This document shows positions 36,730 through 49,030 of a stretch of DNA of 64,000 bases, piece after piece (the first letter of the stretch is position 1; each line of letters opens with the position of its first letter). Under the pieces are notes generated by a model that saw only the letters and a program-made list of their open reading frames with translations, was not told the DNA's origin and searched no databases. The DNA lies in the NCBI RefSeq assembly GCF_019633745.1, contig NZ_CP037968.1, forward strand, positions 744,001-808,000. The letters are read 5' to 3'. A program made the translations under genes and the position numbers. The DNA comes from Methanofollis formosanus. GTDB taxonomy: Archaea > Halobacteriota > Methanomicrobia > Methanomicrobiales > Methanofollaceae.

Positions 36730-37835
36730 AACGGACACGAACACCGCCCCGTGCCGTCCCCCGTCCTATCCTTTCGCGAGATGGCAGAACAGATCCGGAG
36801 GTCATCCCAAAACTCTTCGGCCTTGATATGTGACGAGAAGACGTTTCAGAAGTACGGCTTCGTTCAAGAGATTGCTGCCGCCCCTTGGCTATCTTCGTCG
36901 TGGGGGGTCCGGGGGGTCTCCCCCCGGCGGGAGAGAGCAAGGAAACACGCTTTCTTCTCTCGGTGGGCGGCACGGCTGATCAGTCCAGATACTTTTGGGA
37001 TATGCTCCCGGTGAAGGGGGACGGCATGGTTGGGGATCGTCATGCCGTTTTGTTTTTATGACCCCGGAGATAGAACCTGGACGGAAGAGTAGCGATCATC
37101 ACTCCACGGGCTCATGCATGATGCCGTCCTCTGTCCTATCGTCTCGCGAAATGGCGGAACAGGTTCGGTGATGAGGGGACGGCACATCTGATCACCACGC
37201 CGTTCTGTTGGCATGACCCCGAAGATTGGAGTGGGACGGAAGAGGCGATCATCATTCAACAGGATCACGCGTGGCGCCGTCCCCGTCCTATCCTTTCGCG
37301 AAACGGCAAAAAAGTTCATGTAAAGGGGGGACGGCATCGTGGTCTGATCGTTACACTGTCCTGTATTCATGACCCCGAAGATAGACCACAAACGGGGAAG
37401 CGCGGATCGATTTTCAGTGAGAACACGCGCCCGTGCCGTCCCCTGGCTATCCTTTCGCGAGATGGCAGACCAGTCCGTGCGATTGAAGGCGGCGGCATGT
37501 TCTGATCAGTCCGCTTTCCTTTAAGCATGACCCCGAAGATAGACCACAAACGGAGGGCGGTCGATCTTTGTCGACGTCCCCCGCACTATCCCCTCGCGAA
37601 ATGGCAGGAAAGATTCGATAACGGGGGGACGGCATGGCTGATCATTATGCTGTCCTGTTCTCATGACCCCGAAGATAAACTCTGGATGGTAATGGGCTGA
37701 TCTATTTTAGCGGGATCACACATGGTGCCGTCCCCTGTCCTATCCCTTCGCGAGACGGCAGGAAAGATTCGATGATGAGGGGACGGCACAATGATCACCT
37801 CACTCCCCGTCGTCATGGCCCCTCAGATAGGAATG
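36730..37835 (-). repeat. Tandem repeat array 3 (about six units, inverted relative to arrays 1 and 2)
   Basis: Unit markers TCATGACCCCGAAGAT lie near 37056, 37209, 37369, 37526, 37662 and 37813; a further unit at 36755-37020 is interrupted by an inserted element. The stretch 37535-37680 is closely similar to the reverse complement of 2440-2590, including GGTCGATCTTTGTCGACGTC. Units pair GTGCCGTCCCC with GGGGACGGCA. No conserved protein frame. Confidence 0.85.
36799..37007 (+). mobile_element. 209-bp non-autonomous element inserted in a repeat unit
   Basis: The left end is AGGTCATCCCAAAACTCT and the right end, read from outside, is GAGCATATCCCAAAAGT, giving imperfect terminal inverted repeats. 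CCGG flanks it on both sides (36795-36798 and 37008-37011), consistent with a 4-bp target duplication. Removing the insert restores an array unit (CAGATCCGG joined to TGAAGGGGGACGGCATGG). Copies occur at 21.9, 48.6 and, reversed, 3.3 kb. No transposase is encoded. Confidence 0.65.
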
Positions 37836-38655: not shown

Positions 38656-41600
38656 TTGGAAAGTTCGAAGTTAAACTCCCCGGATTCTGAGCTCTCTCTC
38701 TCCTCCCTGGCCATGGATCGGGCCGGTGACGGTGTCATGCTCATCGACCAGGAAGGCTCGATCATCTATGCCAACGAAATCTTCGGCACACTCTTCGGGC
38801 TTGCAATAGAGGGACTCGCGGGGCGCAGCGCTCTTGAGGTACTGGAGTCCGATCTCTCCCCACTCTTCGAGGACCAGATCGGATTTCAGAATCTGGTTGG
38901 GTCGATGTACCGGAAAGATCGGGAGACCAGTGGGAGAGAATGGGCCCTCACCAAACCGGGACCCCGTTGGGTGGCATACTCCAGCCACCTCGTCAGGAGC
39001 GGACCGCTCCAGGGAGTGCGGGTCGACATCTTCCGCGACATTTCAGAGCGGAAAATAGTAGAGAACGCCGTTAAAATCAGTAAAAAACGGAACCACGCAC
39101 TGGTCTTATCATCCGCGGCCCCCTGTTGCACGACCGATACGACCCTCAGAATCACCTCTGCCAACGAGGCTTTCTACGACATTTTCGGTACCGAAAAGAG
39201 GGACGGTTGTTATCTCACCGACCTTATTCCCCCGGAGAGCGTCGCCCCGGTCGAGGATACCGTCCGATCCCTCACACCGGAAAAGCCGCGGCTTCCCATA
39301 CAGAACCGGGACCGCGAGTGGATCGTTCACGGCATCTTCACCGACGAGGGCACCCTCGTTGAAATCCTCTGGATCTGGCAGGAAGACTGGTTCAAGGCCG
39401 GCGAACGGGTAAAGAAGATGCAGTGTCTGTACAACTTCGTACACCTCCTCCACAACGAGGAACTTCCTGAGGAGGAGACGCTCCTGAGAGGGGCGGAGAT
39501 GATCGAGCGTTCGGTCCCCTGGATCCATGCCGTCGAGATCTCGGTTCCCGGCCGTCTCTCTGTGTCGGCGGGTGAAAAAGGGAAGGGAGCACGGGCCCCT
39601 CTCCCCATCGATGCCGGCGAAGGCCAGGACGGCAAGATGACCGTCTGGTACCAGAAGGAAGACCAGAAATCCACCTCCCCTTCATTCTTTCTTCTCGCCA
39701 TAGCCGACGAGATCACCCTCTATCTCAGAAACAAAACCGCCCGGGAATCTGCCGAACGCTCCCGGGTCACCTACCAGACGCTCTTCGAGACGACCGGCAC
39801 TGCCTCCTTCCTCCTCGGTCCCGGACTGGAGATCCAGATGGTCAACAGGGAGTTCTCCCGTATGTTCGGATACACCGAGGCCGAGATCCGGGACGGCATG
39901 TGCTGGCTCTCCTGTCTGGAAGAGGACGAGCGGGACATGGTCAGACACTTCCACCAGGCGCGGCTGAGCGATACGGGGGATGCACCCACCACCTATGAAT
40001 GTCGCGCCTATGCAAAGGATGGGTCGTCGAAGAACCTCATCGTCAATGTATCCCTCATACCGGGTACCGACCTCTCAATCCTATCCCTGATCGATATCAC
40101 CACAAAGAAAGAGACCGAACACGAACTCAGGGAGAGCGAACATCGCTACCGTCTCATCACCGAGAATGCCACCGACGTGATCTTCACTCTCGACCACGAC
40201 CTCTGCTTCACCTACGTCAGTCCCTCGGTCCTGAAGATCACCGGCACACCTCCCGCGAGCGTGATCTCCAGGCCCATGGCCGACGTGCTCACGCCGGGAT
40301 CGTTTGCACGGTTCCGAGACGCCGCCATAGAAGTCCTGGCACCTGGCGGGGAGCACGGGGAGAAGACCGTCTCTTCAAAGGTGCTTGAGATCGAAGCGCT
40401 CCGTGCTGACGGCAGCCCGCTCTGGGTTGAGGTGCGGATCAACTCCCTCCACGACGCCGAGGAGGGTGCGGCGATCGGCGTGATGGGAGTGATGCGGGAC
40501 ATCAGCGACCGCAAAGAGTCTGAAGAGCGGGAAACCCAGTATATCAGAGAACTCTCCTTCCTCTCCTCCGCAGCAGTGGGCTTCGTCGACCTCCCGCCGG
40601 AAGACGAGATCTACCGGTTCATCAGCGAAAATTTCCGCAGTATCTTCGATGAAGCGCTCGTCTTTGTGACGCAGTACGACAACTTCGAGCAAAAACTCAT
40701 CGTCAGAGCGGTCTCCGGCCTTGACGAGGACAGAGACCCCCGCCTCTATTCCATGGCGCGCGGCAGCATCGGGACGAGCCTGCCCCTCCCCGAAGACCTC
40801 TACGACGACCTGCTTACCGGGGTGCTCACACCTCTTGACGACGGCACCGCCTCGCCGCTCCTCGCGGGGCGGATGAAGAGCGCCACCAGGGCATATCTTG
40901 ACGGAGCGGTCGGTTCGATGCATGTGGCCGGGATCGCGCGCAGCGACAACCTCTTCGGGTGTGTGATCCTGGTCAGGCGGGACGACGGCTACCCCGAGGC
41001 CCTCTCCACCGTCGAGACCTTTGTCCATCTCTCTTCGGTGGCCCTCCAGAGAAGGGTTCTTGAGATGGAACTCGAGTCGACCAAATCACGTCTCCAGCAT
41101 ATCCTCTCCTCCAGTCCGGTCATGATCTTCTCCCTGGATCCCCCGACAGATCGGAGCGGAGGGATGGGCTTGATCACCTACGTGACCGAGAATATCATCC
41201 CTCTCCTCGGCTACGAACCCGAAGAGGTGATCTATGACTCGACCTTCTGGACGGCCACCCTCCACCCCTCGGACCGCCGCCGGATCCAGGACGAAGAGTT
41301 TCCGAAACTCCTTGAAGAAGGGCAAAAGACTCTTGAATTCAGGATGCGTCACAAGGACGGGAAATACCGCTGGCTCCACTTCGAGATGCGGGTGACCCGG
41401 GACGAGGAAGGGGACCAGGTCGAGGTGATCGGTTCTGCGATCGACATCTCCGAGCGCAAGCGGATCGAGGAGGCGCTCAGGGTGATGGACAGCGCGATCA
41501 CCTCCTCGATCAACGCAATCACCATCACCGACCTGGAAGGCGACCTGGTCTTCGCAAACAACTCGGCGCTCAAACTCTGGGGCTTTGAAGAGGTCAAACA

Positions 41601-43842
41601 GGTGGCGGGCAAACCCCTCGAGAGGTTCTGGCAGCCGAAGAAGAAGGTCGCCAAGGCCCTCGAACGGATCGAGAAGGACGGCGGCTGGATGGGCGAACTT
41701 GTCGGGAAGAAGAAAGGGGGCAAGAAGTTCCATGCCAGCGTCTCGGCAAGCATGGTCACCGACGAGGAGGAAGACCCGCTCTGTATGATGTTCTCCTTTA
41801 TGGACATCACCGAGCGGACCGAGATCGAGGAGGAACTGGCAAGGTACCGTTCGCACCTGGAAGAGATCGTCTTCGAACGAACGAAGAAACTGACCGAGAC
41901 GAACGAACTGCTCAGCGCCGAGATCGCCGAACGGAAACGGGCGGAAGAGCACATCAGAGCACTCAGCAACTTCAGGGAGAGCATCATCGAGAACGCCACG
42001 ATGCTCCTTGCGGTCACGGACAGCGAGGGACGGGTCACGGTCTGGAACCAGGCGGCCGAGGAGGTCACCGGGTATGCCAGAGACGAGGTGGTCGGCGGTG
42101 CGGAGATCTGGGAACGCCTCGTCCCTGATCCCACAGTCTGGGCAGAGGTCATGAAGGTGGTGCAGGGCGCGCGCACCGAATCCGACATCCTGAGAAATCT
42201 TGAGGTGACGGTCCGCGCCAGTGACGGGGAGGAGAAGATCCTTCTCTGGAACGCGCGCACGCTCAGAGACGAAGAGGGGCGTCCCCAGGGGATCGTCACG
42301 CTTGCCAAGGACATCACCGAACGCAAGAGGATGGAGGAGGAGGTCAGGGCGAGCGAAGCACGGTACCGCGCCGTGGTCGAGGACCAGACCGAATGGATCT
42401 GTCGCTTCAGGCCCGACATGAGTCTGACCTTCGTCAACGAGGCGTGTTGCAGATCGTTTGGCTTTACCAGAGACGAACTCCTTTCCACGACTCTTGACGC
42501 CATCCTCCCCACCTGGTTCACCGATCTCATCCCTTCGCTGGAGGAGCAACTGCGCGCCGGCCGGCAGAGCGTCACTCTCGACGGGAAGGTGAAGGGCCGC
42601 AGCCAGGAGGAGCGGTGGCACCAGTGGACGGTCAGGGCCATCTTCGCCCCGGACGGTATGGTCACCGAGTATCAGGTGGTGGGGAGGGACGTCACCATGG
42701 TCAAGAAGGCGGAGGAAGAGTTTGTCAGGACCGAGAAACTCCTTTCCCTCTCTGATCTGGCGGGGGGGATCGCCCACGACTTCAACAACATCCTCACCTC
42801 GGTGATGGGCAACATCAACCTGGCCAAGATGAAACTCGCTCCCGAAGACTTTGTCTACCAGCGGTTGACCGAGGCGGAGGCGGCGACGATGAAAGCGGGC
42901 GACATCACCCGCCAGCTCTTCAGTTTCTCCGACCTCTCCGAACCTGAGAAGGAGACGGTCGATATCGCCGACCTGGCCCGCGAGGCCGCGAGTTACGCCC
43001 TGCGCGGCTCGAAGTGCAAATGCCGGTTCGCCCTCGAACCGCTGCCGATGCCGGTGATGGGCGATGCCGCCCAGCTCCTCCAGGTCCTCCATGCCCTCAT
43101 CATCAACGCAGACCAGGCTATGCCGGAGGGCGGGACGGTTGCCATCGGCGCGGGGCCCGTGGAGGTCTCCGGGAGCGACCCAATCCCGCTCCCGAAAGGG
43201 CGTTATGTCAGGATCACGGTCGAAGACCGCGGCGTGGGGATCTCACCCGAGCACATGAGCAGGATCTTCGACCCGTACTTCACCACCAAGAAGCACGGGT
43301 CAGGGATCGGGCTGGCGATGGCCCTCCCGATCATCAAGAACCACGGCGGATGGATGGACGTCGTTTCGGAGCCTGGAATCGGGACGACGTTCTCTATTTA
43401 TCTTCCTACGGCGGCAAATGATATCGGTGAGCAGATGAAACCCGCAGTCATCACTCAGGGCGGGTCAGGTTCTATCCTCCTGATGGACGACGAAGCCGGG
43501 ATCCTGGAGACGACGAGCGACCTTCTCAGGCACCTCGGCTACACGGTCGCAACGGCATATGACGGCGAGGAGGCGGTGGCCAGGTTCGCCGAGGCACAGG
43601 ACGCCGGCACCCCCTTCGACGGCGTCATCCTCGACCTGACGGTCCCGGGGAAGATGGGAGGTCTCGAGACCATGAAACAACTGAAACAACTGGACCCCGA
43701 GGTGCGGGTCCTGGTGTCCAGCGGTTATCTCAACGACCCGATCATCAAGAACCCCGGTAAGTATGGGTTCTACGGGAGCATCGGGAAACCGTACATGTTC
43801 GAAGAACTGAGCCGGACTCTTCAGGAACTTCTTGGCCGGTAA
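38656..43842 (+). CDS. Multi-PAS hybrid sensor histidine kinase with receiver domain
   Basis: A 1728-residue soluble sensor with no transmembrane segment. It has roughly eight PAS modules (about 18-130, 140-235, 375-490, 500-630, 820-950, 955-1070, 1110-1225, 1235-1350), several followed by DITERK-like PAC ends. A GAF-like domain lies at about 640-810 and a coiled coil at about 1070-1105. The kinase core has phospho-acceptor His1374 in GGIAHDFNN, N- and G-boxes (GSGIGLAMALPI) and a C-terminal receiver with Asp1660 in VILDLTVPG. The TTG start is preceded by GGGAG; an ATG at 38713 is an alternative. The input signal is unknown. It lies 96 bp upstream of the TPR-ATPase-HD operon. Confidence 0.9.
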   Translation: MESSKLNSPDSELSLSSLAMDRAGDGVMLIDQEGSIIYANEIFGTLFGLAIEGLAGRSALEVLESDLSPLFEDQIGFQNLVGSMYRKDRETSGREWALTKPGPRWVAYSSHLVRSGPLQGVRVDIFRDISERKIVENAVKISKKRNHALVLSSAAPCCTTDTTLRITSANEAFYDIFGTEKRDGCYLTDLIPPESVAPVEDTVRSLTPEKPRLPIQNRDREWIVHGIFTDEGTLVEILWIWQEDWFKAGERVKKMQCLYNFVHLLHNEELPEEETLLRGAEMIERSVPWIHAVEISVPGRLSVSAGEKGKGARAPLPIDAGEGQDGKMTVWYQKEDQKSTSPSFFLLAIADEITLYLRNKTARESAERSRVTYQTLFETTGTASFLLGPGLEIQMVNREFSRMFGYTEAEIRDGMCWLSCLEEDERDMVRHFHQARLSDTGDAPTTYECRAYAKDGSSKNLIVNVSLIPGTDLSILSLIDITTKKETEHELRESEHRYRLITENATDVIFTLDHDLCFTYVSPSVLKITGTPPASVISRPMADVLTPGSFARFRDAAIEVLAPGGEHGEKTVSSKVLEIEALRADGSPLWVEVRINSLHDAEEGAAIGVMGVMRDISDRKESEERETQYIRELSFLSSAAVGFVDLPPEDEIYRFISENFRSIFDEALVFVTQYDNFEQKLIVRAVSGLDEDRDPRLYSMARGSIGTSLPLPEDLYDDLLTGVLTPLDDGTASPLLAGRMKSATRAYLDGAVGSMHVAGIARSDNLFGCVILVRRDDGYPEALSTVETFVHLSSVALQRRVLEMELESTKSRLQHILSSSPVMIFSLDPPTDRSGGMGLITYVTENIIPLLGYEPEEVIYDSTFWTATLHPSDRRRIQDEEFPKLLEEGQKTLEFRMRHKDGKYRWLHFEMRVTRDEEGDQVEVIGSAIDISERKRIEEALRVMDSAITSSINAITITDLEGDLVFANNSALKLWGFEEVKQVAGKPLERFWQPKKKVAKALERIEKDGGWMGELVGKKKGGKKFHASVSASMVTDEEEDPLCMMFSFMDITERTEIEEELARYRSHLEEIVFERTKKLTETNELLSAEIAERKRAEEHIRALSNFRESIIENATMLLAVTDSEGRVTVWNQAAEEVTGYARDEVVGGAEIWERLVPDPTVWAEVMKVVQGARTESDILRNLEVTVRASDGEEKILLWNARTLRDEEGRPQGIVTLAKDITERKRMEEEVRASEARYRAVVEDQTEWICRFRPDMSLTFVNEACCRSFGFTRDELLSTTLDAILPTWFTDLIPSLEEQLRAGRQSVTLDGKVKGRSQEERWHQWTVRAIFAPDGMVTEYQVVGRDVTMVKKAEEEFVRTEKLLSLSDLAGGIAHDFNNILTSVMGNINLAKMKLAPEDFVYQRLTEAEAATMKAGDITRQLFSFSDLSEPEKETVDIADLAREAASYALRGSKCKCRFALEPLPMPVMGDAAQLLQVLHALIINADQAMPEGGTVAIGAGPVEVSGSDPIPLPKGRYVRITVEDRGVGISPEHMSRIFDPYFTTKKHGSGIGLAMALPIIKNHGGWMDVVSEPGIGTTFSIYLPTAANDIGEQMKPAVITQGGSGSILLMDDEAGILETTSDLLRHLGYTVATAYDGEEAVARFAEAQDAGTPFDGVILDLTVPGKMGGLETMKQLKQLDPEVRVLVSSGYLNDPIIKNPGKYGFYGSIGKPYMFEELSRTLQELLGR

Positions 43843-43854
43843 GGCAACAACCAC

Positions 43855-43861
43855 TTTTTTT
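43855..43861 (+). terminator. Oligo-T terminator after the hybrid kinase
   Basis: Seven T residues 12 bp past the kinase stop codon, separating it from the next operon. Confidence 0.5.
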
Positions 43862-43938
43862 CGGCTCTTTCCAGCGGCCCCCTCCGAGGAACACGATTCA
43901 GTATGCTTATTGGGCCGCACCTCCCAGTACACCCTGCT

Positions 43939-45741
43939 ATGACCGAGGGATCACCCGCCGATGGCAGGGAAGAGGCGTTCGCCCTCTATGAAGCAGGACA
44001 TTACCGCGAGTCGATCGAGTGTTGCAACGCACTCCCCGGCGGGAAGGATGACCCTTCGGTCGCGGTCCTCGTCGTGACCAACTATTTTGCCCTCGGCGAG
44101 TACGACGAGGCCGAAGTGCGTCTGCGCGATCTCATTACGCACTCGCCGGACTCGTCATATTACCACAGTTTCCTCGGGAAGGTACTGGAGACCGCCGGAA
44201 AGGAAGGAGGAACCGCTGCGTACGCCCGGGCGGTCCAACTTGATCCCGGGAACGAGGAGGCGTTGCGGGCCTATGCGGCGCACTTCACCGGGTTGGGCGA
44301 CCACCGCGCCGCCCTGCCTCTCCTTTCGGCCCTCGTGTCCATCTCAGGGAAGCGGGACGACGCTATCGCCCTGATGCGCAGCCTCATCGAGACCGGCGAC
44401 GGCGAGCGGGCGCTGGAGGTCCATGCGTCGCTCTCCGGCAGCGAGGGAGCGGAGACCGAATACATCGATGCCCTGATGATCGCCGGGAGACACCGGGAGG
44501 CGGCGAAGACGGCTCTTGCAGCATACCGCTCATGCCGTGACCCCGGGTTCCTGCGCCAGCACCTCGCCGCGCTGGCAATCTTCGACCGCCCCGCCGCCCT
44601 GCATCTCTTCCCGACGTTCCTCCAGGAATGCCCGGACGACGACCTGGCCCTCGACTATGTCCTCCTCCTCAAGTCCGAAAAACGGTGCCGGGAGGCGCTG
44701 GAGGCCTGCAAACGACTCATCGAAGAGAGGCCGGACCCGATCCACCAGCTCGTCGCCTGCGAACTCGTGGCCGGGACCGGTGAGACCGACCTGGCACAGC
44801 AGGGATATGAAGAACTGATCAGAGAGGAGATCAGGCAGGGCAACGACCTTGAGACGCTCTCGATGATCATCGGGGCGTACGAGGGTTTTCTCAGGAAAGC
44901 GTACACCCTGACGACCGTGCCCGGGTGTTACCTCTCGGTGGTCTCGGGCGACCCGAACGTGGTCAGTCTGGTGCGGACCGGTTGGTTCTATGCCTCCTTC
45001 GGGGAGACGAAAGAGGCACGCGAATGGCTGTACCGGGCCTACCGCCTCGACTACCTCAACGGTGGGGTCGAGTATGCCGGGTTCCTGGCACAGGAGGGAG
45101 ACCTGCGCGAGTGCGAGAAGGTGCTTCTCTATGTCCTTACTCACCTCAAAAAGACCGGGGACCTGGTGCGGGTGGCTGAGACGGTTCTCGAGGCGAAGCG
45201 CGGGTGGCAGAAGATGCAGCGCCTGGTCGAAGCTCTCATCACCAGGTTCTCCGGCGAAATCGGGACCCTCGGGCCCGAAGGAGTAGAGGTCTTTGCCAGG
45301 GTTTATCTCTGCGCCGCAGAGGGGGCGCTCGAGGCAGGCGAGTACGTGCGGTGCAAAGAATGCTGCCTGTACGGGCTTGATCTGACCAGAACCCATACCG
45401 ACGAGTTCTTCGATCTCGTCGCCCGGTGCAAGAGGGCGACGGTGGCCGAACGACCGGTGCTCTCCTTCGGCAACACCGGTCCTGCGGGGAAGAGCAAGGA
45501 GAAGGAGGAGAGCGACGACCTCCTCGACCTGGAACTTGACGAACGCGAAGAGGCGCTCGTCGCCTTTTTAAAACAGCACCGAGAGAGCAATGAAGAAGAA
45601 CTCCGCAAAGTGCTCGGGACGAGGCGGGTGAGCGGGACGGTCAACCGGCTCATCAAAAAGGCGGCAGACATCGGAATTTCCCTCATCGAGAAACAGGGGA
45701 TGGGTGAGCACGGCGAGATCTATGTCTACTGCGGGAAGTGA
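43939..45741 (+). CDS. TPR-repeat protein with C-terminal winged helix
   Basis: A 600-residue protein. About 480 residues are helical TPR-like repeats (EEAFALYEAGHYRESIECC, FALGEYDEAEVRLRDLI, GKVLETAGKEGGTAAYARAV and later units), a protein-binding superhelix. A charged linker (KSKEKEESDDLLDLELDERE) leads to a winged helix-like end (about 540-600: EELRKVLGTRRVSGTVNRLI followed by a wing). ATG 43939 is chosen; ATG 43903 is in frame but overlaps a possible TATA-like TATGCTTATT. Its stop overlaps the start of the BrxD-like ATPase gene, so the two are coupled and probably interact. Not assignable to a named family. Confidence 0.8.
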   Translation: MTEGSPADGREEAFALYEAGHYRESIECCNALPGGKDDPSVAVLVVTNYFALGEYDEAEVRLRDLITHSPDSSYYHSFLGKVLETAGKEGGTAAYARAVQLDPGNEEALRAYAAHFTGLGDHRAALPLLSALVSISGKRDDAIALMRSLIETGDGERALEVHASLSGSEGAETEYIDALMIAGRHREAAKTALAAYRSCRDPGFLRQHLAALAIFDRPAALHLFPTFLQECPDDDLALDYVLLLKSEKRCREALEACKRLIEERPDPIHQLVACELVAGTGETDLAQQGYEELIREEIRQGNDLETLSMIIGAYEGFLRKAYTLTTVPGCYLSVVSGDPNVVSLVRTGWFYASFGETKEAREWLYRAYRLDYLNGGVEYAGFLAQEGDLRECEKVLLYVLTHLKKTGDLVRVAETVLEAKRGWQKMQRLVEALITRFSGEIGTLGPEGVEVFARVYLCAAEGALEAGEYVRCKECCLYGLDLTRTHTDEFFDLVARCKRATVAERPVLSFGNTGPAGKSKEKEESDDLLDLELDEREEALVAFLKQHRESNEEELRKVLGTRRVSGTVNRLIKKAADIGISLIEKQGMGEHGEIYVYCGK

Positions 45742-47021
45742 AGAGGATGGACGAGAAGAAGGCTGAGAGTATCGGGATTATCAACGCCCTCAGGCGCGGC
45801 ACCGTGCCGGCCGCAGGGCTCGAGCGACTTGCGGTCGGACTCGATGTCGAGGGACGGGTGATCGGCGAGCAACTCGAGTACGTCGCCTCGGGTGGGGCGG
45901 ATGTCAAGTTCGTACGCGGGGACTACGGGAGCGGAAAGACCTTTCTGGTGGCGCGGGCGCTTGAGATCGCACGCGAGAAAGGGTTTGCGACCGCCCATGT
46001 GATGATCTCGGCCGACACGCCGCTCCACAAGTTGGGGGCGCTATATTACCGGATCCTTTCGTCCCTGCGGACGGCCGAGCACGAGAACGCCCTCAAGGAG
46101 GTCATCGACAACTGGACCTTCTCGATCGAGGAGCGGATCATCGAGGTTGAGAAGACCGAGGAGGACGAGGCACTGGAGGCCGGGACAGTGGCGCGGATCG
46201 AGGAGGCGCTCACCGACATCTCGGCAGTCAACCCGGCACTGGCGGCGGCGCTGCGGGTCTACTACACCGCCAACAACGCGGGAGATTTCCAGCTCGCCCA
46301 GGCAGCACTCGGCTGGCTCTCCGGCGAGCCCCATGTCGGCCGCGACTTCCGCCGGGCGGCCGGGGTGAAGGGCGAGGTCGACGAGGTCTCGGCTCTGGTC
46401 TTTCTCCAGGGGATCGTGCGGGTGATCCGGGGAGCGGGGTACCGCGGTCTCGCCGTGGCCGTCGACGAGGTCGAGACGGTGCAGGCCCTCCCCTCCAACC
46501 TGCGGCAGCGGGGTTACAACAACCTCCGCCAGATCGTCGACGCCGCCGACCGCGGGCAGATGCCCTGCTGCTATTTCCTCTTCACCGGGACGCCGGCCTT
46601 TTTCGAAGGCTCGAAGGGGATCAGGTCGCTCCCGCCGCTGTACGACCGGTTGAAGGTCGTAGGGGCCGACGGGTATGCCAATCCCCTCCAGGCCCAGATC
46701 GAACTCTCGCCCTTCGACGGGCAGAAACTCGAGTCGGCCGCCCGGAAGGTCTCCGAGATCTACTCGGACGCGTATGGGCCGGTGGACCGGGAGCGGATCT
46801 CTCACCGTTTTGTCAGGGGGATGATCGAGGGAGTCACCTCGCGCTTCGGCGGGCGGGTGGATGTCATCCCGCGGGTCTTCCTGCGCGAGTTCGTCGATGT
46901 CCTGGACAAGTGCGAACTCTATACCGACTACGACCCGGGCAAGACCTATGCCTTCGATGCCGGGAAGGTGAAGCAGGAACTGAACGAGGAGGAAGAGGCC
47001 TTCTTTGAGGTCGAGTTCTGA
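45738..47021 (+). CDS. DUF2791/BrxD-like P-loop ATPase
   Basis: A 427-residue AAA/ORC-like ATPase of the family I know as DUF2791, which includes BrxD of type 2 BREX phage-defence loci. Walker A is RGDYGSGKTFL (about residues 60-70) and Walker B LAVAVDEVETV (about 238-248). It also has PALYYRILSSL-like helices after Walker A, FTGTPAFFEGSKG near 290 (sensor-1-like) and ISHRFVRGMIEGV near 355. GTG 45738 overlaps the TPR gene stop; ATG 45747 is an alternative. No BREX methylase, PglZ or helicase is present, so this is a stand-alone lineage. It is followed after 12 bp by the OB-HD gene. Confidence 0.85.
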   Translation: MKRMDEKKAESIGIINALRRGTVPAAGLERLAVGLDVEGRVIGEQLEYVASGGADVKFVRGDYGSGKTFLVARALEIAREKGFATAHVMISADTPLHKLGALYYRILSSLRTAEHENALKEVIDNWTFSIEERIIEVEKTEEDEALEAGTVARIEEALTDISAVNPALAAALRVYYTANNAGDFQLAQAALGWLSGEPHVGRDFRRAAGVKGEVDEVSALVFLQGIVRVIRGAGYRGLAVAVDEVETVQALPSNLRQRGYNNLRQIVDAADRGQMPCCYFLFTGTPAFFEGSKGIRSLPPLYDRLKVVGADGYANPLQAQIELSPFDGQKLESAARKVSEIYSDAYGPVDRERISHRFVRGMIEGVTSRFGGRVDVIPRVFLREFVDVLDKCELYTDYDPGKTYAFDAGKVKQELNEEEEAFFEVEF

Positions 47022-47033
47022 GGGGTGCATGAG

Positions 47034-48002
47034 ATGAGCGAGAGACCCGGAAAACAGAAGTATGCAGCAGAGGTCACCGACGGTGAGGGGGTGGACGACC
47101 TCTTCCTCCTCAAGACCTTCGAGGTGAAGCAGAAGAAGGACGGGAGCCCGTATATCTGGGCAGAGATCGCCGACGTCACCGGCACGCTCTCCTGCTTTAT
47201 CTGGGGCGTGCAGGGGTACGGTGACACAGTCATGGAGATCGCCTCATCCCTGCGGCCCGGGGAGGTTTACCAGGTGCGGGGTTTTGCGAAGATCTACAAC
47301 GGATCGGTCCAGGTCTCGGTGAACGAGGGGATCGCCGCCCTCGCCGAACCGGTCTCTCCCGCGCTCGTCGATCCGAACGACTATGTCTCCTCGCCGGTCA
47401 AAGACCTGGACCTGAAGGGCGGGGTGCTCAGGATGGCCGGCGAGATCACCGACCCGGTGCTCGGCCAGATGGTGCTGGAGGCGATCTCGTCGGTCGACGG
47501 GTTCTTCATCAAACCCGCGGCAAAGGGGAGGCACCACGAGTACAGGGGAGGGCTTGCAGAGCACACGCTCGAGACGGCCAGGATCGCGCTGGCGGCCTGC
47601 GAGGCCGGACGGACCGATGCCGACCGCGACCTGGTCATCGCCGGCGCCCTTCTCCACGACATCGGGAAGGCTTTCTGTTTCGAGGAGCAGGGGCTCGGCT
47701 TTGCGGCGCAGCCGGAATACGACCTCGTCGGCCACGTCACGCTTGGCGTGTCCTATATCGCTCCCATCGCAAAGAAGCGCCTGCCGGCCGGGAAGGCCGC
47801 TCACCTCCTCCACATCCTCCAGGCCCACCACGGGCCGCACGGCGAGGTGCCCTGCCAGACGCCCGAGGCCTGGACGGTCCACCTCGCCGACCTGACCAGC
47901 GCCACCCTCAGGGAGGCCGCCGACGACCAGGCCGATCTCGTCCCGGGAAGCGGGAAGAGAAATGGATGGCGATCAGGCGGACCGGTCTGGCGTTTCGAGT
48001 GA
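47034..48002 (+). CDS. OB-fold and HD-domain protein (YhaM-like 3'-5' exonuclease)
   Basis: A 322-residue protein. Residues 1-110 form an OB fold (FLLKTFEVKQKKDGSPYIWA, LSCFIWGV, VRGFAKIYNGSVQVSV). Residues 150-300 form an HD phosphohydrolase domain with GGLAEHTLE (about 168), LLHDIGKAF (about 205), GHVTLGVSYI (about 232) and ILQAHHGPHGE (about 262), followed by HLADLTSA with the last metal-ligand aspartate. This OB-HD order is that of YhaM/CBF1-type 3'-5' exoribonucleases. GAGGGGTG lies 6 bases before ATG 47034. It probably degrades RNA or ssDNA together with the ATPase and TPR partners; that partnership is inferred from the operon. Confidence 0.85.
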   Translation: MSERPGKQKYAAEVTDGEGVDDLFLLKTFEVKQKKDGSPYIWAEIADVTGTLSCFIWGVQGYGDTVMEIASSLRPGEVYQVRGFAKIYNGSVQVSVNEGIAALAEPVSPALVDPNDYVSSPVKDLDLKGGVLRMAGEITDPVLGQMVLEAISSVDGFFIKPAAKGRHHEYRGGLAEHTLETARIALAACEAGRTDADRDLVIAGALLHDIGKAFCFEEQGLGFAAQPEYDLVGHVTLGVSYIAPIAKKRLPAGKAAHLLHILQAHHGPHGEVPCQTPEAWTVHLADLTSATLREAADDQADLVPGSGKRNGWRSGGPVWRFE

Positions 48003-48064: not shown

Positions 48065-49030
48065 TTATTCTGGCTTTGAGGTCATCCCAAAACTCTTCAG
48101 TCCTCCTCCTCTCAGAAGATAGCGGTGGATGTGGAGAAAATATCCTCCCCTTTTCGTTGCGCACCCATGCATTCATGCCTTCCCACACCGCCGCGCCGGG
48201 GGGGCTAGCACCCCGGACCCCCGGGATTACGATGGGGCCGGGAAGGCAGAGAAATAGCCATGAGATCATCCCTAAACTTCTCTGGCCTTGATAGGAGAGT
48301 GGAAGAACTTTCTGAAGCACAGTGTCTTTCAAGAGATTGTTGCCGGCCCTCCCCTATCTTCGTCGTGGGGGGTCCGGGGATTTCCCCCGGCAGAAGAGAG
48401 CAAGGAAACACGCTTTCTTCTCTTTGTGGGCGGCACGGCTGATCGATCTGCTTCCCTCTGTTACTCACACAGGGGCCGCCGCCCTGGACCTCTGGGATGG
48501 CGATTGAAGTGGGGGAGGCAGAGGAATGGCTGGAAAGTGTCTCGATCCTGATGATTGATCGAGCCCCGACTACTTCTGGGATATGCTCATAGAGGTCATC
48601 CCAAAACTCTGGCCCTGGCGGGTGATGGGAAGAAGTTTCTGAAGTACAGTGTCGTTCAAGAGATTGCTGCCGCCCCGCCCCTATCTTCGTCGTGGGGGGG
48701 TCCGGGGGGTCTCCCCCCGGCGCGAGAGAGGAAGGAAACACGCTTTCTTCTCTTGGTGGGCGGCACGTCTGATCGGTCCGGCTACTTCTGGGATATGCTC
48801 ATAGTAAATCTTCTTGATGGTTCTCTTCGACGGGGGGCGTGCCGTCCACCGAACCCCCCGCGCGAGCGATAGGCGGTGGACTGCAACCTCCCTTTCAGGG
48901 TCATTTCTCCGCCTTCCGCCCCAATCTTCATCCCGGGAGGAGCCCCCGGCGTGAGCATGAGGGAAGGCGATGGATGAAGGTCACAGGAGGTTGAGGTGAT
49001 GAAAAGCGGATGTTTTCTACAGAGTCCTTA
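48065..49030. repeat. Cluster of dispersed elements (CATCCCAAAA-ended and MITE-like)
   Basis: AGGTCATCCCAAAACTCT ends occur at about 48078 and 48592, and a variant ATCATCCCTAAAC at about 48270. A complete copy spans 48592-48799 and ends GGGATATGCTC; ATAG directly precedes and follows it. 48805-49025 is a reversed MITE-like copy with a GGACTCTGTAGAAAACATCC outer end. GC-rich palindromes occupy 48190-48240 and 48340-48390. No gene in this kilobase. Confidence 0.75.

Follow-up and report, generated by a model that had tools for sequence, protein, structure and literature searches.

Introduction

BrxD and BrxHI were described from antiviral systems. A survey of BREX (PMC12839542) describes BrxD as an ORC/Cdc6-type AAA+ ATPase that forms a tight dyad with BrxHI, classed there as a Ski2-like helicase, and helicase loading was proposed; BrxD reportedly carries no additional DNA-binding domains. 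No archaeal type 2 BREX was found in that survey, which mentions neither methanogens nor TPR partners. The helicase SngC, together with BrxHI, DruE, and DpdJ, has been placed in a potential helicase clade that is defined by antiphage functions (PMC12278908). In the literature accessible without subscription, we found no description of BrxD together with methanogens or of a split module.

In this study, we analyzed a window of 64,000 nucleotides from the genome of Methanofollis formosanus (2.97 Mb, one contig, C1), in which a BrxD-family ATPase is encoded next to a TPR protein with a winged helix (TPRw), and compared it with 120 Methanomicrobiales genomes, whose families are numbered here (f1, Methanofollis; f5, Methanoregulaceae). 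As judged from sequence, these proteins and an unlinked helicase probably make up an orphan machine of the BrxD-BrxHI ATPase-helicase type that is inherited vertically, has TPRw as a new adaptor, and likely acts in genome maintenance.

Organization of the locus

The three genes of the first-pass annotation are all present on the plus strand (Table 1), and the oligo-T run and the downstream repeats that it had noted on either side were both located. The 4-bp overlap (GTGA) that it gave for TPRw and BrxD holds if BrxD starts at the GTG, and becomes a 5-bp gap with the ATG, which is favored by the homologues (the majority have Met in that column of the family alignment); the 12-bp gap before the OB-HD gene is valid for a start at ATG 47034.

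Table 1. Positions in the window of the three genes and of associated features
Feature	Position	Strand	Basis or remark
TPRw	43903/43939-45741	+	ORF; 600 aa, TPR superhelix with C-terminal winged helix; proposed adaptor (from 43939)
TPRw C-terminal winged helix, residues 535-597	45541..45729	+	AlphaFold and 26-homologue alignment
BrxD-family AAA+ ATPase	45738-47021	+	Start GTG 45738 or ATG 45747
BrxD Walker A, GDYGSGKT	45918..45941	+	19-homologue alignment
BrxD Walker B, VAVDE	46455..46469	+	19-homologue alignment
OB-HD (YhaM-like) 3'-5' exonuclease, predicted	47025-48002	+	ORF, HD and OB domains
Oligo-T run between PAS kinase and TPRw, possible terminator	43855-43862	+	Sequence

The repeats are approximately 105 nt long (CCCCGGACCCCC...GACGAAGATAGG) and are dispersed between OB-HD and hisD, at 48280-48790 and around 49790 of the window; peptide-like remnants similar to them lie near 36750. 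A PAS hybrid kinase of 1,728 aa (38656-43842) precedes TPRw, and among the neighborhoods fetched it occupies this slot only in Methanofollis. A glycosyltransferase-like gene is found in the same slot in many f5, f6, f2, and f4 genomes. The kinase was rejected as a member of the unit because these families have glycosyltransferase-like or other genes at its position.

The BrxD ATPase

The assignment of the middle gene as DUF2791/BrxD-like was confirmed by high scores against Pfam BrxC_BrxD (430 bits, cut-off 22), NCBIfam BREX_BrxD (NF033438; 431 bits, above the curated cut-off of 350 for the family), and PADLOC BrxD (435 bits), and the same family test gave 162 for the SngB of a Shango locus (L084) and 222 for the ATPase of an f12 locus. 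The protein clusters with BREX BrxD in the tree (support 90/93) and is 42% identical to a bona fide BREX-2 BrxD. Both Walker motifs are intact, as had been noted: Gly61, Tyr63, Gly64, Ser65, Gly66, Lys67, and Thr68 of Walker A and Asp243 and Glu244 of Walker B are invariant in 19 homologues. The best match in a fold search is archaeal ORC2, which is weak (E = 0.023). The dN/dS of BrxD (0.09-0.13) is like that of hisD (0.06-0.14).

The same genome contains a second, distantly BrxD-like DUF2791 ATPase (L095:8925-11976, about C1:179.4-182.5 kb; ATPase at C1:179.6-180.5 kb) that adjoins a small DNA-binding-like protein and a Tgt-like gene; large helicase-like ORFs lie beside it, and the region may be another defence locus. 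This ATPase was rejected as a BrxD orthologue on the basis of its score of 47 bits and its small DNA-binding-like partner.

The TPRw protein

The AlphaFold model of TPRw (mean pLDDT 86) takes the shape of a TPR-like helical superhelix (residues 6-500) followed by a low-confidence stretch (507-526) and the winged helix, which bears out the earlier description of the first gene. The winged helix has the order H-E-H-H-E-E, with block pLDDT values of about 81-88, and is among the best conserved parts of the protein, with many invariant columns in 26 homologues. The dN/dS of TPRw is 0.13-0.22. No match was obtained in PADLOC or PHROGs, and Pfam and PADLOC searches gave neither a TerB domain nor a match to SngA. 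A relationship with the 258-aa protein that is encoded upstream of the BrxD-like ATPase in f12 was rejected, as the two have no similarity.

Conservation of the TPRw-BrxD pair and of the OB-HD nuclease

A single-copy BrxD orthologue is present in all genomes of f1 (12/12), f5 (24/24), and f6 (24/24), whereas f2, f3, and f4 have none (0/60); more distant matches in the latter families, and second matches in some carriers, do not exceed 113 bits. TPRw has the same distribution and lies adjacent to and upstream of BrxD in 60 of 60 carriers, the exception being assemblies that split the gene, and it immediately precedes BrxD in each of 29 independently fetched named contigs; this adjacency supports the proposal that the ATPase and the TPR adaptor form a unit. 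Besides TPRw, no gene family adjoins the pair in all loci. The core unit is TPRw and BrxD, without OB-HD.

The closest solved relatives of the OB-HD protein are the YhaM 3'-5' exoribonucleases 9h3f (phmmer, 6.5e-17) and 9o7t, and these matches, with the HD and OB domains, are consistent with its description as YhaM-type. It scores 72 bits against the YhaM equivalog model (cut-off 460), by which it is judged to be YhaM-like and not an orthologue. Among the 120 genomes, OB-HD occurs in f1 and f4, in the majority of f2 genomes, and in 23 of the 24 genomes of f6; it is missing from f5 and f3. It adjoins BrxD in every f1 genome (12/12) and in some of f6, and lies 2-7 kb downstream in most others. 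The nuclease had been proposed as a component of the module; f4 and the majority of f2 genomes have it but not BrxD, while all 24 genomes of f5 have BrxD without OB-HD, and this independent distribution led us to reject it as an essential component. An HD gene found mostly apart from DUF2791 had been named beforehand as evidence against the proposal, and this is largely what f4, f2, and f5 display. OB-HD would be an older neighbor able to act without the machine; it is an operon neighbor in f1 and part of f6.

An unlinked BrxHI-type helicase

Because BrxD-like ATPases elsewhere adjoin an SF2 helicase and none is found here, the genome was searched with the Shango helicase. An SF2 helicase of approximately 700 aa adjoins the BrxD-like ATPases of Shango (L084-L087), BREX-2, and the f12 loci (L081-L083). 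The f12 locus is a compact trio of the 258-aa protein, which has no match in Pfam or PADLOC, a BrxD-like ATPase, and a BrxHI-type helicase. In the present genome, an orphan helicase of 703 aa is encoded at C1:1983450-1985560 on the plus strand, outside the window and 1.2 Mb from TPRw-BrxD. It matches PADLOC BrxHI with 539 bits over the full model length, and the ordinary Lhr of the genome matches part of the model with 365 bits; BrxHI and Lhr are related, so that helicase family scores overlap. In the tree, the orphan helicase falls in the BrxHI/SngC clade as a lineage of its own and Lhr stands apart (100/100), by which its interpretation as a mere Lhr paralogue was rejected.

The nearest annotated bacterial relatives of the helicase immediately follow brxD in BREX loci. 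These are the annotated long matches of a plasmid search, from Polaromonas, Thiodictyon, Pseudanabaena, Deinococcus, Aulosira, and Sphaerotilus, each encoded by the next gene after brxD or after that of a BREX-type ATPase; one more plasmid relative, from Azospirillum, is in a record without annotation. Helicase motifs I, Ib, II, III, and VI have core residues that do not vary among f1, f5, and f6, and dN/dS of the helicase is 0.17-0.27. All three genes (TPRw, BrxD, and helicase) are intact and show purifying selection.

In the 120-genome set, the helicase is present, with at least 440 bits, in exactly the 60 genomes that carry TPRw-BrxD. The best match in the other 60 is Lhr (at most 280 bits), and one of these genomes also has a Shango helicase (233 bits). 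Across 232 genomes of the order, BrxD was found in 138 and the helicase in 134 (both in 129, neither in 89, one only in 14), and the 14 genomes with one only are all 64-91% complete; of the 135 genomes with a completeness of 90% or more, 85 have BrxD and 86 the helicase. Several of the genomes whose numbers fall within the f5 block are in neither list of the 232-genome set.

In most carriers, the orphan helicase is preceded by a thioredoxin gene (L105:6620-7045), and in several f6 genomes the two genes abut or overlap slightly; families without the helicase also have the thioredoxin gene at this slot.

Comparison with described systems

Type 2 (and type 6) BREX resembles the methanogen genes in that its BrxHI is 33-39% identical to the orphan helicase, and its helicase gene adjoins brxD. 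In type 2 BREX, pglX, pglZ, and pglW/pglY share one locus with brxD-brxHI, whereas no gene for PglW, PglX, PglY, or PglZ lies beside either methanogen locus, BrxD and the helicase are unlinked, TPRw is added, and the genes are fixed and vertically inherited. The absence of BREX partner genes reported for this DNA holds within the window but not for the whole genome, which has both the BrxHI-type helicase and a separate type-1-like BREX cluster. This cluster, about 120 kb from TPRw-BrxD, contains the genome's sole PglZ hit. The cluster (L207, C1:903000-922000) encodes a PglX-like protein of 1,098 aa, PglZ of 765 aa, and a BrxL/Lon-like protein of 682 aa.

Shango (SngA, TerB; SngB, ATPase; SngC, helicase) also combines an ATPase and an SF2 helicase with a variable third protein encoded upstream of the ATPase. 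However, TPRw takes the place upstream of the ATPase without resembling SngA, the helicase gene is not adjacent to the ATPase gene, SngB and SngC fall in other clades than the methanogen BrxD and helicase, and Shango-like loci are patchy in the order, unlike the genes described here. Archaeal Lhr shares a related SF2 core with the orphan helicase (about 230-280 bits), but is about 900 aa long, is present across the order, and forms the separate clade described above. The ORC/Cdc6 loaders belong to the AAA+ class assigned to BrxD (PMC12839542), in line with the weak ORC2 fold match; in contrast, the winged helix would be supplied to BrxD in trans, by TPRw, and loading is a proposal.

Chromosomal slots and history

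The gene order in carriers is PfpI-(GT or kinase)-TPRw-BrxD-(OB-HD)-hisD, and in f2 and f4 it is PfpI-GT-OBHD (GT10), with hisD further on and no TPRw-BrxD between. At the helicase slot, carriers have purF-Trx-helicase, and f2, f3, and f4 have purF-Trx and no helicase, mostly with a small PCD-like gene. Both loci are fixed chromosomal slots and not islands; the gene-lacking families examined have the conserved blocks minus these genes. The earlier suggestion of a self-contained, mobile defence cassette does not fit the TPRw-BrxD pair, which is vertically inherited in conserved housekeeping synteny and, instead of being patchy or set in an island or mobile-element context, is universal in three families of the 120-genome set.

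In the EF-2 tree, f1 clusters with f2 and f4, and f5 and f6 group together apart from these, with f3 outside f5 and f6; forcing f1, f5, and f6 into one clade was rejected (AU test, p = 0.018). As the carriers do not form a single clade, two or more events are required in which the unlinked genes were gained or lost jointly. With both slots common to f1 and f5/f6, we infer ancestral presence with joint losses; two gains are also allowed by parsimony on the tree alone. In the BrxD and helicase trees, f1 and f6 each remain a clade, and there is no sign of transfer between families. The co-occurrence amounts to two or three evolutionary events, not 232 independent ones. Its absence from three families means that the module is dispensable and not universally essential.

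Discussion

We propose that TPRw, BrxD, and the unlinked BrxHI-type SF2 helicase probably constitute a three-protein machine. BrxD, as an ORC/Cdc6-type AAA+ ATPase, would load or activate the helicase on DNA, and the superhelix of TPRw would grip BrxD, the helicase, or both, with its winged helix contacting DNA in place of the DNA-binding domain that BrxD reportedly lacks. The job of such a machine would probably be standing genome maintenance, such as the processing of forks, repair, or the processing of aberrant DNA; maintenance is favored over a mobile defence role by the fixation of the genes, their synteny, and the purifying selection on them.

An alternative that we consider unlikely is constitutive innate defence, in which the BrxD-helicase engine of Shango and BREX, fixed in the chromosome, would act against methanogen viruses or plasmids with TPRw replacing TerB or PglZ as the sensor. 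This would suit the absence of the genes from three families, the antiphage definition of the helicase clade, and the fact that most other BrxD/BrxHI/SngC family members encountered sit in defence systems, but the patchiness expected of a defence island is contradicted by genes that are single-copy in all 60 carriers of the 120-genome set and have stayed in one slot for as long as the three families have existed, among housekeeping neighbors and with a BrxD dN/dS close to that of hisD.

Two further alternatives appear improbable. The first is a Ski-like RNA surveillance system, in which a TPR scaffold and a Ski2-like helicase would feed OB-HD as a 3'-5' exonuclease: the fold matches of TPRw include TPR subunits of the Ski complex, BrxHI is classed as Ski2-like (PMC12839542), and YhaM is a 3'-5' exoribonuclease family, yet TPR matches are generic, the ORC/Cdc6-type ATPase and the winged helix point to DNA, and OB-HD is not obligate. 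The second, to which we give equally little credence, is coincidence, with two unrelated gene sets sharing their pattern through genome kinship and BrxD working with TPRw alone; two or three events would suffice for the pattern, but the carriers do not form one clade, and the relatives of BrxD and the helicase are adjacent in BREX, Shango, and the f12 loci. Finally, a single surveillance or defence complex of TPRw, BrxD, and OB-HD with the nuclease as effector, as first suggested, is highly improbable: one-strand adjacency in f1 and some f6 genomes speaks for it, but the separate occurrence of pair and nuclease in f5, f4, and f2 largely refutes an obligate trio, and a facultative link of OB-HD in Methanofollis is possible.

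Returning to the three-protein maintenance machine, we suggest, more tentatively, that the BrxD-BrxHI engine of BREX and Shango might have a cellular, non-defence form, a helicase-loader-like archaeal maintenance machine that would be either the source of the defence ATPase-helicase core or its domesticated descendant. The naming of a concrete unlinked partner for TPRw-BrxD makes the function of the module directly testable, and a fixed minimal form that lacks methylase and phosphatase genes would allow the ATPase-helicase step to be examined in isolation. Being fixed throughout entire archaeal families, such a form would also show that the helicase clade extends beyond immunity.
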